Assembly (NCBI GenBank): GCA_001412365.1 | Contig: LKUE01000328.1 | Coordinates: 1 to 14,638, forward strand | Reading direction: 5' to 3' | DNA: 14,638 nucleotides | Source of the DNA: Desulfuromonas sp. SDB | Lineage (GTDB): Bacteria > SDB-A | In this document: positions 48 through 8,429 of the stretch, in pieces | Layout: every line of letters starts with the position of its first letter | Numbering within the stretch: position 1 is the first letter of the stretch | The notes under the pieces: model-generated | What the model was told of the DNA's origin: nothing | What the model saw: the letters and a program-made list of their open reading frames with translations, nothing else | The model's database searches: none | Made by a program: the position numbers and the translations under genes

Positions 48-1091
48 TTATTCAGGAGGCCATAAATTTAAAAGATGCTTGTTCTCTCCCGGATCAAGCC
101 ACATCACCGGTAAACCCTCCGGATCAAAGGTGATCAGACAATACTTGGGAGGAGCTATGTACAGAGCAATATCTCCAGGATTTCCTCTTTGCTGAGCTAA
201 CCAGGAGCTGTCCGAATCATCTTCCTTGACCAAATAGGAAGGTTTAAAGCTACCCTGGGGATATTCGTAATATGAAATCATGACATAGGGTTTTTCCACT
301 TCCACACTATCCCGGGGTACTTCTCTTCTCCTGCGCACTTCAGGTTCGGGGGGATTAGGCCATATAAATTTAATTTCAACAGAACCCAGGTTTGAGAAAT
401 TTTGGGGAAGCTCGGGAATATTACTGACTAAATATTCAGCAATGGTAGCATTGAACAACCATCCTGAAAACTCAGCTTGATCTTCGGGAGGTACTGTATC
501 CACATAAAGCAAGGTTGAATTTTCAGTCATGGAAAATTCAAGGTTGGGAGTTTTTTCACCACTTTCCCAAGCAGAATAAGTAATCTTATGTATAGAGGGA
601 TCGTAGGAGATAATTACTGAATCATCCAAAACCCCGGGAATACCTTCTAATCCCGCTTGTTCCCAAAGCTGGGCAATTTCAGGATCAGGTTTGTACATCC
701 ACTGACCTGCATCGGTGGTATCCCAGTAAAGTTCCACTGGATATCTACTCTCCACCAATGAAGATTCCGCAACAAAAACATTAAGATTTGCTTGACCTTC
801 ATTATAAGGATTTATCAGTGCTCCTTTAATGTTATTGGTGACATCTTCTAAACTGGTGGGATAGGTTATATCATAACTCCAGCTATGCCTGACCGGATCC
901 CAGTTCACTGTAGAATGTTGGAAAATATATCTTTCTATGCCTGCTCGAGCTGTATAAAGATTGGTCCTGGCTCTGCGAAACTTTAACTCTTCTTTCATCT
1001 CCTGTTGCTGGGGTAAAATTATTATAGCTACTAATACAATAGCCATCACTATAATTAAAATATCCAGCAGAACCCTCACAGTTTTACTCAT
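48..1091 (-). CDS. Membrane-anchored pilin-like protein without a prepilin cleavage site
   Basis: A 347-aa protein of unknown function. The start is placed at the ATG at 1091 because AGGAGG lies just before it; an in-frame ATG at 1130 has no such site. Residues 5-26 form one hydrophobic helix, so the rest (27-347) is probably exported. The helix matches the type IV pilin / type II secretion pseudopilin N-terminus position by position: Asp10 falls where pilins have Glu5, and Pro27 falls on the conserved Pro22. Next comes an amphipathic stretch (about 28-53, RARTNLYTARAGIERYI) like the pilin helix that precedes the globular head. The Gly at -1 needed by prepilin peptidase is replaced by Val5, so cleavage is not expected. 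The C-terminal part is Pro/Asp/Trp-rich with no family I recognise. It lies downstream of the substrate-binding/TonB gene with its own candidate promoter. Gene existence is secure; the pilin relation is an inference. Confidence 0.8.
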   Translation of the reverse strand: MSKTVRVLLDILIIVMAIVLVAIIILPQQQEMKEELKFRRARTNLYTARAGIERYIFQHSTVNWDPVRHSWSYDITYPTSLEDVTNNIKGALINPYNEGQANLNVFVAESSLVESRYPVELYWDTTDAGQWMYKPDPEIAQLWEQAGLEGIPGVLDDSVIISYDPSIHKITYSAWESGEKTPNLEFSMTENSTLLYVDTVPPEDQAEFSGWLFNATIAEYLVSNIPELPQNFSNLGSVEIKFIWPNPPEPEVRRRREVPRDSVEVEKPYVMISYYEYPQGSFKPSYLVKEDDSDSSWLAQQRGNPGDIALYIAPPKYCLITFDPEGLPVMWLDPGENKHLLNLWPPE

Positions 1092-1153
1092 TTCTCCTCC
1101 TAATCTCCCTTTCAGTAAACATAAATTCAATTAAAATTTGTAATAAATTTTAT

Positions 1154-1191: not shown

Positions 1192-3594
1192 TCATTCTAC
1201 AAAATTGATCGGAATTACGGTTTGAGACTGAACCGGTGTTCCATTTTCGGTGGCGGGATTGAATTTTGCACCCATTGCTGCTCCCCGGGCTTCATTATCC
1301 GCAAGCGGATTTCCCGAAGATCCTACCACTTCTGCAGAAATTACTGATCCATCTGACCCTATAGTAACCCGGACAAAAGCCCTGGTTATACCCATTCCCT
1401 GAGCTGCATCGGGAACTCGAGCCTGGGGTAAACTGATGGGGGTGGGATTGGTCCTCACCACTTCTTGAGAAGTAGTGGCTACTGTATCCGGAGTTGTTGC
1501 CACTGTATCCTCCGGAGTTTCTTCTCCTACTGTTCCTCCATTGGAAGGTCCAGTAGTTACTTCCACCGGAGTTTCTTCAGTAATAGTTCCTTCAGAGGTA
1601 ACTTCGGCAGTAGTTTCTCCTCCTTCGATAACTGTTTCCGTTCCGGTTCCTACTGCTTCTTCCAACAGGGCACCGGTGGCGGCAAGCTCAATAGGCAGCT
1701 CGGTAGTATCTCCCGCTTCTTCTGCAACTTCCAGGGTTTCCGGCTCTACTTCGGGCAAGGAGTCAACAATAGTATCCACCGCTAACGTGTCTGCTTCTGC
1801 TACTACCAGAGTTTCTTCAACTACCGGCGTTTCCTCCTCCACTACCGCCACTGCAGTAGTGGGAACTCCGGTACCGGAATAATATATCTCCTGAAGGTTA
1901 AATGAAGCCAATCTGGTTTCTACCGGTTCACCTGCATAATTGATGTCAATAGCATTTAACTCCGAAGGAACAAATAGTAGAGTAAACGGCTGTTCATTAA
2001 GTAATATATTCTGCATTTCATCCCAGGCTTTTTTAGCTTCTCTGCGGTCCAGAGTAGCGGTAGCATTGATAAGGGAATCTATCTGATCTGATGAAAATGA
2101 AGCTAGATTCAACTTACCTCCGGTACCAAATACCTCTTTGGGGTGAACAGACTGCTCACCGACCAAAGCGTAGTCTAAAATATACCCGGAATATTCTGCC
2201 GTTTCTAATTTCTCCTGCACCACTCTAAGATCGGGAACTACCATGGTGGAACAGACAATTCCAATCTCCTCAAGCTGTTGACCTATCCGGTTAAGCACCA
2301 GCGCTCCAGAGCTGTTTAAGGCAACTAGTTTCAGAGTAATCACCTCTCCTTCATACATCCGGGCAAATATTGAATCGGAAGGAACGGTGTCCAATGCCAA
2401 CCTGCCCCTGGGTCTGGCTTCCAAAGTTTCCACTTTCCAGGCAGTGTAAAGCCATTTTCTGTCTTTCAATCCCAGAGAATCTAAAAGACTGTTAGCTAAA
2501 GATAAATCGTATTGGGGAGGATTTAGAGATGAATCATAAGCCCAAAACTCAGGGGAAAGCGGGGTAGCCGGTATCCTGCCTTCTCCCCTCAACAATTCCT
2601 CCACCAGTTGTTCTTTGTCAATAGCTAAACTTAAAGCATACCTAAATCTGGCATTACCCAACAAATCATCATTGGTAGCCCATCCGATTGAATAATATCT
2701 TCTGCCGGCATCATTTAGCTGGACATTAACATGCTCAAAATCAGCTAATATATCTGCATATGATGAAAATACTCCTAAAGCCAGGTCAATATTTTGATAT
2801 CTCAATGCTTCAACCATATCCCGGGAAGAACTGAATGATTTAAAAATCAAAGTATCCAGAGGAGGTTGATTCCGGTAATATTCCGGATTAGAAGTGATAA
2901 CAATTTCGTCTCCATGATAATCAGGCACCCTCCAGATAAATGCTCTGCGGGTATCTAAAATGAAAGGTCCATTGGATACAGTTTTAGATGGATTCATTCC
3001 AAATCCACTCATCACCAATGAACTGACTGAATTTACATTTACCAATAAATGTTTGGGTAGTGGGTAAATGTCGCTATCAAATAATTCAGTGGAATAAGGT
3101 TCGGTGAAATTAACTTTCACCGTGTATTTATCCAAGACTTCCACCGATGAAATCATATCGAAAAATTTTCTGAAGGGAGACTCAATCTCAGGATTATTTA
3201 ATATAAAATCAAAAGTAAATTTAACATCTTCTGCGGTTACATCTTCCCCATCCGACCATTTTATGTCTTTTCTAAGGTAATATATAATCGCACTGAGATC
3301 CTCAGAAAACTCCCATCTCTGAGCTAAAACCGGCACTAATTGCCCATTTTCATCTCTTCTTATCAATGGTAAGAATAACTGCTCAGAAATTGGATTTTTA
3401 CCAGTAAACAGAGGATGAAGGGGAACAAATAAATCGGGGATATCAGTTCCGGTAACCCCGATGATCATAGTTCCTCCCTGCTCGCCCTGAATTGGTTCCA
3501 CTTTGGAAGTGGTACAACTGCTGGCGCTTATAACAACCAGCAACAGTCCCAAGATAAATAATCTAAATTTTGAGTACTTTAGTACAGCATACAT
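1192..3594 (-). CDS. Family-5 substrate-binding lipoprotein fused to a TonB C-terminal domain
   Basis: An 800-aa predicted lipoprotein. Residues 1-26 are a basic then hydrophobic signal ending SASS, and Cys27 is the likely lipidated residue. Residues about 40-574 look like the extracellular solute-binding protein family 5 of peptide/nickel ABC importers: a start-of-domain segment with 'PLIRRDENGQLVPVLAQRW', then 'DIKWSDGEDVTAEDVKF', a hallmark of that family. Residues 575-719 are a Val/Thr/Glu/Pro-rich, low-complexity linker. Residues 720-800 match the TonB C-terminal domain: 'VRVTIGSDGSVISAEVVGSSGNP', a helix with conserved acidic and Ala residues, then 'NGTPVQ' and the terminal 'IPINF' strand. 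The ATG at 3594 follows a GAGGTGG ribosome-binding site. No permease or ATPase genes are nearby. Family 5 proteins bind oligopeptides or metal chelates, and TonB C-terminal domains contact the plug of outer-membrane receptors. The joint role here is inferred. Confidence 0.9.
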   Translation of the reverse strand: MYAVLKYSKFRLFILGLLLVVISASSCTTSKVEPIQGEQGGTMIIGVTGTDIPDLFVPLHPLFTGKNPISEQLFLPLIRRDENGQLVPVLAQRWEFSEDLSAIIYYLRKDIKWSDGEDVTAEDVKFTFDFILNNPEIESPFRKFFDMISSVEVLDKYTVKVNFTEPYSTELFDSDIYPLPKHLLVNVNSVSSLVMSGFGMNPSKTVSNGPFILDTRRAFIWRVPDYHGDEIVITSNPEYYRNQPPLDTLIFKSFSSSRDMVEALRYQNIDLALGVFSSYADILADFEHVNVQLNDAGRRYYSIGWATNDDLLGNARFRYALSLAIDKEQLVEELLRGEGRIPATPLSPEFWAYDSSLNPPQYDLSLANSLLDSLGLKDRKWLYTAWKVETLEARPRGRLALDTVPSDSIFARMYEGEVITLKLVALNSSGALVLNRIGQQLEEIGIVCSTMVVPDLRVVQEKLETAEYSGYILDYALVGEQSVHPKEVFGTGGKLNLASFSSDQIDSLINATATLDRREAKKAWDEMQNILLNEQPFTLLFVPSELNAIDINYAGEPVETRLASFNLQEIYYSGTGVPTTAVAVVEEETPVVEETLVVAEADTLAVDTIVDSLPEVEPETLEVAEEAGDTTELPIELAATGALLEEAVGTGTETVIEGGETTAEVTSEGTITEETPVEVTTGPSNGGTVGEETPEDTVATTPDTVATTSQEVVRTNPTPISLPQARVPDAAQGMGITRAFVRVTIGSDGSVISAEVVGSSGNPLADNEARGAAMGAKFNPATENGTPVQSQTVIPINFVE
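1438..1872 (-). repeat. Low-complexity linker-coding stretch within the substrate-binding/TonB gene
   Basis: This encodes about 145 residues dominated by Val, Thr, Glu, Pro and Ala, with recurring EETPV, VVEE and DTVATT-like words and no aromatic residues. It separates the ligand-binding domain from the TonB-like domain and resembles the extended periplasmic linker of TonB, though it is acidic and Thr-rich rather than Pro/Lys-rich. On the opposite strand the same biased composition leaves long accidental open frames. Confidence 0.8.
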
Positions 3595-6657: not shown

Positions 6658-6686
6658 TATATATTATTTTTGTTATTATCTATCAA
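6658..6686 (-). promoter_or_regulatory. Candidate promoter for the 255-aa gene in the divergent gap
   Basis: On the minus strand, TTGATA (6686-6681) and TATATA (6663-6658) are 17 bases apart, giving a leader of about 50 bases to the ATG at 6598. The 113-base gap 6599-6711 must also hold the promoter of the plus-strand operon, for which I see only weak matches. It also holds 6-bp inverted arms AGTGAT (6613-6618) and ATCACT (6643-6648), of doubtful meaning. Confidence 0.4.
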
Positions 6687-6711
6687 ACTGTCAAGAAAAA
6701 CAGGAGGCAAA

Positions 6712-7236
6712 ATGGGAGATCTTGGAAATAAATTGAGAAATGCAGGAGATTGGCTGGCCAAGCATATCCCTGGCTTTGCAGGTTATGTAAAAAGAGAAGA
6801 ACGCCGGAGAGCGGATAAAATTTTCCGAGATTACCTAGTGGGAAAATTAAGGGATGCGAAATCCCGTCTCAGCAGAGCAACTGTAAAAATAACCGATTCC
6901 GGAGATTTAAATGCATTGAAAACTCTGTCCAGGGTTGAAGCAAAGTATGAAACCGTCACTGACCGGTTGAGATTAGCTGATTACGGCTACACCGGCTGGT
7001 TCGATACAGTTCAAATTGATTTTGATGAATTAGACAAACTTTATGAATTTGATGTTAATCTCACCATGTCCGTGGACCAGATCTGTAAAATTGCCCAGGA
7101 TATGGAAGCAGGCTCTTCTGAAGAAGCATCAAAATTAATCATGACCTTAAATCAAAGTTTGGATGAATTAGATAAAAAACTTAAACAAAGAGATAATCTA
7201 TTCATCCAGGAATTAAATTTCAACAGGAGTGAATAA
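6712..7236 (+). CDS. Helical partner protein of the SPFH/zinc-ribbon protein
   Basis: A 174-aa soluble protein without signal peptide or membrane helix. The ATG at 6712 is chosen because AGGAGG ends four bases before it; the frame is open further upstream without a site. Residues 14-45 carry 'WLAKHIPGFAGYVKREERRRADKIFRDYLVGKL', an amphipathic, strongly basic segment with a conserved-looking IPGxxGY core. As I recall, this segment recurs in hypothetical proteins encoded beside SPFH proteins; I cannot name the family. The remainder (about 46-170) is charged, predicted mostly helical and probably coiled coil. It ends with TAA overlapping the ATG of the SPFH gene by one base, implying translational coupling and a shared function. 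A scaffold or membrane-surface role like that of PspA-type partners is only an inference. Confidence 0.85.
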   Translation: MGDLGNKLRNAGDWLAKHIPGFAGYVKREERRRADKIFRDYLVGKLRDAKSRLSRATVKITDSGDLNALKTLSRVEAKYETVTDRLRLADYGYTGWFDTVQIDFDELDKLYEFDVNLTMSVDQICKIAQDMEAGSSEEASKLIMTLNQSLDELDKKLKQRDNLFIQELNFNRSE

Positions 7237-8429
7237 TGGCATTTGGCATGAAATTAATGGATTTAATTGAATATCATGATCCCTCCGGGGAGGAAATGGT
7301 TCATAAAATACCGGAGCAGGGATCCGGAGAAACAAAACTGGGCAGCAGATTGATTGTACGGGAAGATCAACAGGCGGTATTTTTCAGAGACGGGCAAGCC
7401 CTGGATGTATTTGGTCCGGGAAAACATGTTCTGACCACTGCCAACCTACCCCTTCTCAACAGATTGGTGGGAGCGGCTTTTGACGGCAACACTCCATTCC
7501 GTACCGAGGTAATATTTGTCAATACTAAAACTTTCACTAACGCAAAATGGGGCACCCCTGAACCCATTCCCTTCAGGGACAAGGAGTTAAAGTTAATCAG
7601 AATAAGGGCGTTCGGCGCATATTCCTTGAGAATAATCGAAGCCCAGCTTTTTGTTAATAAAATCGTTGGCTCCCAAGGCATCTACAGAAGAGAAGAAATT
7701 GAAGATTTTCTCAGAAGTATTATTATAGCCCGGTTTACTGATTTTCTGGGAGAAGTGGCGTCCAAGGGACTGTCAATTTTTGATTTAGCCAGCAATTACG
7801 ATGAAGTTGCAGTGGGAGGAAAAGCCAGGATTCAACAGGATTTCGAAAAATATGGACTGGAGATACCTGATTTTCTGATCCAGGCAATTAGCTTACCGGA
7901 AAAAGTCCAAGAAATGATAGATGAAAGAGGAGCAGTGGAAGCGATGGGGGGCTTAGGCGGATTTACTCAATTCCAGGCAGCCAAGGCGATGAGAGAAGCA
8001 GCCAGCAATGAAGGTGGTGGTGCGGGAATGGGCATGGGTATGGGTGCAGGTTTGGGCATGGGAATGATGATGCCGGGAATGATCAATAATGCCTTCCAGC
8101 AATCTCAGCAGCAAAATCAGGGAGGGGGAGGAGCAGCGGCTATGATTAATTGTCCCCACTGTAATACTCCTGTCCCCGCAAATTCAAAATTTTGTCCGAG
8201 TTGCGGCAAACCGGTGCAAGTGGGCACACCTTGTCCTAAATGTGGTCAACCAGTGCCATCCGGCTCTAAATTTTGTCCCCACTGTGGAAATGAAATGAAA
8301 ACTGGAGCGGTGTACTGTTCTAACTGCGGTAATGAAATTCCCCAAGGTTCAAAATTTTGTCCCCATTGCGGCAATTCCATGGGACAGAATCCTCCTTCCC
8401 AAGATCAGCCTTCTCAAGATACAGAGTAA
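7236..8429 (+). CDS. SPFH-domain protein with three C-terminal double zinc ribbons (YdjI / 'virion core protein' type)
   Basis: A 397-aa protein. Residues about 35-235 form an SPFH/band-7-like domain with its start 'SRLIVREDQQAVFFRDGQ', the 'FGPGKHVL' turn, and the end segment 'YGLEIPDFLIQAISLPEKVQEMIDERGA'. This subgroup includes B. subtilis YdjI and is often called virion core protein-like. Residues 258-302 are a Gly/Met then Gln-rich flexible linker. Six CxxC knuckles follow as three double zinc ribbons: Cys306/309 with 320/323, Cys333/336 with 347/350, and Cys361/364 with 375/378. There is no transmembrane anchor, so it probably acts on the inner face of the membrane through a partner. 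SD AGGAG at 7225-7229. In B. subtilis, ydjI lies in an operon with a PspA-family gene. No PspA is visible here; the 174-aa helical protein takes the adjacent place. Confidence 0.92.
   Translation: MAFGMKLMDLIEYHDPSGEEMVHKIPEQGSGETKLGSRLIVREDQQAVFFRDGQALDVFGPGKHVLTTANLPLLNRLVGAAFDGNTPFRTEVIFVNTKTFTNAKWGTPEPIPFRDKELKLIRIRAFGAYSLRIIEAQLFVNKIVGSQGIYRREEIEDFLRSIIIARFTDFLGEVASKGLSIFDLASNYDEVAVGGKARIQQDFEKYGLEIPDFLIQAISLPEKVQEMIDERGAVEAMGGLGGFTQFQAAKAMREAASNEGGGAGMGMGMGAGLGMGMMMPGMINNAFQQSQQQNQGGGGAAAMINCPHCNTPVPANSKFCPSCGKPVQVGTPCPKCGQPVPSGSKFCPHCGNEMKTGAVYCSNCGNEIPQGSKFCPHCGNSMGQNPPSQDQPSQDTE
8151..8378 (+). repeat. Three tandem zinc-ribbon units in the SPFH gene
   Basis: A unit of 27-28 codons is repeated three times, each ending with SKFCPxCG, and the DNA word AAATTTTGTCC recurs at 81- and 84-base steps near 8187, 8268 and 8352. 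The last two copies share nearly identical bases (TTTTGTCCCCA), pointing to tandem duplication within the gene. Confidence 0.85.

Follow-up and report, generated by a model that had tools for sequence, protein, structure and literature searches.

The gene at 1192-3594 of the window (the whole stretch of 14,638 nucleotides analysed here) encodes an 800-residue protein that joins a lipoprotein signal, a family-5 solute-binding domain, a disordered linker and a TonB C-terminal domain (CTD) in one chain. Each of these domains is known singly; their combination is real, is conserved in upwards of 50 species from three or more little-known phyla, and is undescribed, no published description having been found in the open-access literature searched. 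The initial annotation of this DNA knew of no described system with this order of domains, which agrees with our search, and a survey of transducers does not mention the architecture in the passages searched (PMC12204202). The features are as follows.

1192-3594, minus strand: entire gene, 800 aa, from the lipoprotein signal through the family-5 domain and the disordered linker to the TonB CTD (ORF, Pfam, NCBIfam, AlphaFold2).
3514-3594, minus strand: lipoprotein signal peptide, residues 1-27, with the lipobox Cys27 at its end (sequence; Cys invariant in 30 homologues).
1870-3486, minus strand: family-5 solute-binding (AppA/OppA-like) domain, residues 37-575 (Pfam, PDB profile, Foldseek).
1432-1869, minus strand: low-complexity linker rich in E/T/V/A/P, residues 576-721, disorder predicted for 581-709 (alignment, AlphaFold2).
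1195-1431, minus strand: TonB CTD, residues 722-800 (TonB_C, TIGR01352, fold match).
48-1130, minus strand: 360-aa protein downstream of the fusion, TTG-start ORF, N-terminal transmembrane helix, no Pfam family (ORF, Pfam).

The sole N-terminal hydrophobic stretch of the fusion is the lipoprotein signal ending at Cys27, and every one of the 30 aligned homologues keeps this cysteine. The signal peptide and the invariant cysteine predict an exported, lipid-anchored protein, and to judge from the sequence no N-terminal transmembrane helix of the kind that binds TonB to the ExbB/ExbD motor is left after processing. Both the lipobox cysteine and the lack of a TonB-type helix, with a lipid anchor only, had been read correctly in the initial annotation, which left the strand unstated; the ORF lies on the minus strand. 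The HMM searches proposed there all returned scores above the curated cut-offs: SBP_bac_5 (PF00496) at residues 86-468 (E 5e-57, 194 bits versus a cut-off of 32.4), TonB_C (PF03544) at residues 728-798 (E 6.4e-12, 46.2 bits versus 24.6) and, from NCBIfam, TIGR01352 (tonB_Cterm) on the tail (E 5.6e-12, 45.8 versus 27.1). The claimed family-5 domain is thus borne out by the profile and by the predicted SBP fold, and a spurious TonB_C match is ruled out by two curated libraries (Pfam and NCBIfam) together with the fold. Two details needed correction: the 81-residue tail does match TonB CTDs, but the chain ends in IPINFVE rather than IPINF, and the low-complexity linker, given as 145 residues, comes to about 146 (576-721).

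The full-chain AlphaFold2 model, built on the window protein together with 32 relatives, has a confident SBP fold up to about residue 575, disorder over residues 581-709 (pLDDT below 50) and a confident tail at 711-800, which reached a mean pLDDT of 92 when modelled alone. In a Foldseek comparison with solved structures the binding domain matched first AppA of B. subtilis (1xoc, E 7.5e-40), with NikZ and DppA types next, and 1xoc was also the top hit in a profile search of solved PDB chains (E 4.9e-109); this AppA structure was solved with a nonapeptide bound. Structure modelling, another of the checks proposed, gave the tail a TonB fold, closest to the solved CTD of N. meningitidis TonB (Z 11.1 over 81 residues, rmsd 2.2), followed by TonB in complex with TbpA (Z 10.9), FoxA (Z 9.4) and BtuB (Z 8.1). 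The C-terminal domain of FusB matched with Z 7.8, and TolA domains more weakly, with Z 6.6 and below. TonB domains thus head the structural matches of the modelled tail, for which Foldseek was also run, and several of these were solved in receptor complexes. Two more long proteins with TonB_C tails above the cut-off are encoded in the window's genome (L004:1489-3117, minus strand, 542 aa; L005:139-1704, plus strand, 521 aa), the middles of which are Gly/Ser-rich or mixed.

A search of related genomes for the same architecture found that the four-part protein recurs and that the tail is not a separate gene. It occurs in all four species of the window's family, the other three having ORFs of about 770 residues with 49-52% identity over the binding part; in all ten genomes of the phylum of f130; and, by ORF length and match, in about 50 of the 147 genomes of a third phylum, that of G041, from which 25 sequences were examined and aligned together with L007. 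This phylum takes in MAGs deposited under the names Cloacimonadota E44_bin80 (L007) and candidate division WOR-3 RS_19_7 (L023). In a domain-wide sample of 386 genomes that included the window's family, scored on the best candidates per genome, full-length matches elsewhere were found only in the families f130 and f102 among the matches listed. Every one of the 30 proteins in alignment A2 has Pfam matches to both SBP_bac_5 and TonB_C, and tail and binding domain lie on a single ORF in 41 proteins. A frame or assembly artefact is ruled out by intact single ORFs in more than 50 genomes, and a chance joining by the 30 homologues matching both Pfam families and by tail conservation exceeding that of the SBP domain. 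In a tree of 70 binding domains all 40 fusions fall on one side of a branch (support 100/100, 100% of bootstraps), and no TonB_C tail was found on the plain relatives examined among the other top family-5 proteins of the genome collection. A single origin is favoured, short of proof because the root of the tree is not fixed. Contig C281 of G041 encodes a different family-5 protein (L162:199-2913, plus strand), a long coiled-coil protein with the family-5 domain at its C-terminus and a match to the chemotaxis-type MCPsignal domain; ORFs resembling it, of about 1050-1130 aa, are found in many genomes of the third phylum, L162 being the one scanned for domains.

Members of the window's family are 78-82% identical in the tail, against 50-53% in the binding domain; averaged over A2, the majority fraction falls from 0.64 in the tail to 0.54 in the binding domain and 0.24 in the linker. 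TonB CTDs bind their targets by beta-strand addition, according to the transducer survey (PMC12204202). The tails of the window's family have lost a YP motif and a glycine of the other members, and so their strand addition may differ. Across 41 homologues the linker measures 73-141 residues (mean 91) and its composition varies from Glu/Thr/Val-rich to Lys/Glu-rich or Pro/Ala-rich. A motif P[EQ]x[LI]L, often reading VNPQDLL or APEKLLEAAA, occurs 25-59 residues N-terminal of the tail in 27 of the 41 linkers, as against 0.3 in shuffled ones, the rest of the linker being unconserved; it is absent from the linkers of the window's family. The TonB-box-like stretch EETLVVAEA in the window's linker is not conserved in the three nearest relatives and was taken as chance.

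None of the four genomes of the window's family encodes an SBP_bac_5 protein besides the fusion. The window's genome encodes four ABC permeases by NCBIfam, two of which are Pst components above the curated cut-off and two Ugp/Mal-like, with UgpA and UgpE as best matches below the cut-off. With a panel that included OppB and OppC, none of 50 permeases was Opp-like, all being closest to the phosphate (Pst), sugar/glycerol-phosphate (Ugp/Mal) or molybdate (Mod) types; they came from ten genomes with the fusion, four of f1, two of f130 and four of the third phylum, and eight further matches were left out. As far as these profile matches go, the Opp/Dpp permease that would be cognate to an OppA-type importer is missing among the permeases compared, which supports the lack of cognate permease genes that the initial annotation proposed to check. 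An ordinary Opp importer with a distant permease was rejected, as no such permease was among those compared. One pair among the eight left-out matches (G284, C2) looks by eye like a sugar-type pair and adjoins a sugar-binding protein. OppC_N scored above the cut-off in seven of the 147 third-phylum genomes, too few for a test of an inverse relation between fusion and OppC; one of the seven, G174, is the single fusion genome with an OppC-like permease above the cut-off.

The window's genome encodes three receptors with a plug domain, and on its contig C274 genes for TonB, two ExbD, ExbB and one receptor are clustered. TonB-dependent receptors were found in every genome checked, and thus the co-occurrence that the initial annotation proposed to check holds in these genomes; it is uninformative, however, because all 147 third-phylum genomes have receptors whether or not they have the fusion. 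In two MAGs, at the loci L023 and L165, a TonB-dependent receptor gene is divergent to the fusion gene, and the receptors start with the TonB-box-like LPEIVVTAKR or LPGIVVTAKR; such a neighbour was met in one clade only, and most loci have unrelated neighbours. In f130 an M19 membrane dipeptidase, identified in two cases by Pfam and in the other four by likeness of the protein starts, is divergent to the fusion in six of ten genomes (L211, L212, L227, L228, L230 and L231).

Upstream of the window's fusion gene lie rpmE (L31) and rho, the latter also in three related genomes, where rpmE falls below the length listed; a functional link to either was rejected, nothing pointing to a shared function. 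Throughout the window's family, in each of its four genomes, a counterpart of the 360-aa protein lies downstream of the fusion on the same strand; this protein is a possible partner. Farther along, at 6670-8429 on the plus strand, the window encodes a 188-aa protein with no Pfam match and then an SPFH/Band_7_1 protein with zinc ribbons; the SPFH gene is kept nearby in G001-G003, and for G001 and G002 the listing also shows the gene for the 188-aa protein. In several third-phylum genomes the fusion gene adjoins a gene for a 403-aa membrane protein with no Pfam match (L007:2828-4039, minus strand).

Docking of the binding protein on an outer-membrane receptor through its TonB domain appears to be the idea that fits best, because the modelled tail is close to receptor-bound TonB, because binding of E. 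coli TonB to two periplasmic binding proteins, FhuD and BtuF, has been reported (PMC3813593, citing Carter 2006 and James 2009), and because the TonB-like FusB binds its ferredoxin cargo as well as the TonB box of FusA (PMC7593965). A peptide is the most likely ligand, judging from the kinship with AppA and the dipeptidase neighbour. The protein would then be a secreted, lipid-anchored oligopeptide-binding protein with a built-in receptor-docking domain, in which a flexible tether separates the lipid anchor and binding domain from the TonB domain and would be long enough to reach a receptor from either membrane. Its TonB domain would grip the TonB box of the receptor while the binding domain collects the ligand. 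The proton motive force could not drive the fusion itself, since it lacks a transmembrane helix for ExbB/ExbD, and a separate, genuine TonB would do the pulling. In the absence of an Opp-type permease the ligand would probably go to peptidases in the periplasm or to some other carrier of the inner membrane.

We infer the docking, the peptide ligand and the hand-off, and give this account of a non-energised, receptor-docking peptide catcher a nearly even chance of being correct. The separately encoded TonB, ExbB, two ExbD and receptor in the window's genome speak for it; the restriction of neighbouring receptors to one clade, the receptors in 147 of 147 genomes, the lost YP motif and the OppC-like permease in G174 count against it. 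It is possible, though we regard it as the more doubtful claim, that the fusion represents an import arrangement used across phyla, in which a binding protein uses its own TonB domain to dock on TonB-dependent receptors, receives peptides straight from the receptor and replaces the Opp ABC importer, whose task would pass to periplasmic digestion or another carrier.

The rarity of receptors in the gene neighbourhoods would also suit an envelope tether, in which the TonB-type domain binds not a receptor but something else, be it peptidoglycan, ExbD, a Tol-Pal-type partner or a further strand-donating protein, and simply keeps an orphan binding protein in one spot of the periplasm. The homologous CTDs of TonB and TolA use strand addition on different partners (PMC12204202), TolA domains do match the tail, and the linker motif, so far above its shuffled expectation, could be another docking site. 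We consider a tether unlikely, given that the top fold matches are to TonB rather than TolA, several in receptor complexes, and that the same genome has a genuine TonB system and receptors. Lower still we place a use outside import, with the binding domain sensing or stabilising envelope peptides and the TonB domain either transmitting its bound state to a receptor or keeping the protein at the envelope: the lack of an Opp permease in the ten genomes compared is in keeping with it, and the signalling fusion L162 indicates that family-5 domains serve non-transport purposes in the third phylum, but no recognisable signalling gene is linked to the fusion in the loci examined and the dipeptidase neighbour in f130 suits nutrition. 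It is improbable that the protein is a system-specific TonB that associates with the genuine TonB or with ExbBD, perhaps through CTD dimerisation, and is thereby energised to pull receptor and cargo as FusB does, since, for all the dual binding of FusB (PMC7593965) and its match to the tail, transducers bind the motor by an N-terminal transmembrane helix (PMC12204202) where the fusion has a lipoprotein signal with an invariant cysteine.

If it is a receptor-docking peptide catcher, the fusion suggests how bacteria without Opp permeases might yet use a peptide-binding protein. How substrate gets from an outer-membrane receptor to the periplasmic protein that binds it is an old open question, and the retention of both partners in one chain through three or more phyla speaks for a benefit of their being close. 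The fusion thereby offers a stable protein for direct tests of docking, ligand capture and hand-off.

Among known systems, the AppA/OppA-type lipoproteins, such as B. subtilis AppA (1xoc), share with the fusion the lipid anchor and the full family-5 domain and are closest to it in profile and fold. However, known members stop after this domain and partner with OppBCDF, whereas the fusion continues with a linker and a TonB CTD, and none of the permeases compared from ten genomes was of Opp type. The TonB transducers (TonB_C, TIGR01352) share the CTD and a long disordered, often Pro-rich linker, but have a motor-binding N-terminal transmembrane helix in place of the lipid anchor and 540-residue binding domain of the fusion. 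FusB, from ferredoxin uptake, is to our knowledge devoid of a separate ligand-binding domain. Its likeness to the fusion lies in a TonB-like CTD and direct contact with cargo (PMC7593965), which has been seen for FusB and is proposed for the fusion; FusB is described as an energising transducer (PMC7593965). To bind its motor, TonB requires an N-terminal helix bearing an SHLS motif (PMC12204202), which the fusion lacks. The reported contacts of FhuD and BtuF with TonB in E. coli likewise place a binding protein near TonB and a receptor (PMC3813593), an arrangement presumed for the fusion, although there the two are separate proteins and here both are in one chain. Finally, the myxochelin receptor MxcH (NF038079) carries a TonB_C-like stretch on a non-TonB protein, and the start of the NF038079 model matches the fusion tail as well as genuine TonBs (NCBIfam); in MxcH this domain sits on the receptor, whereas in the fusion it sits on the binding protein.
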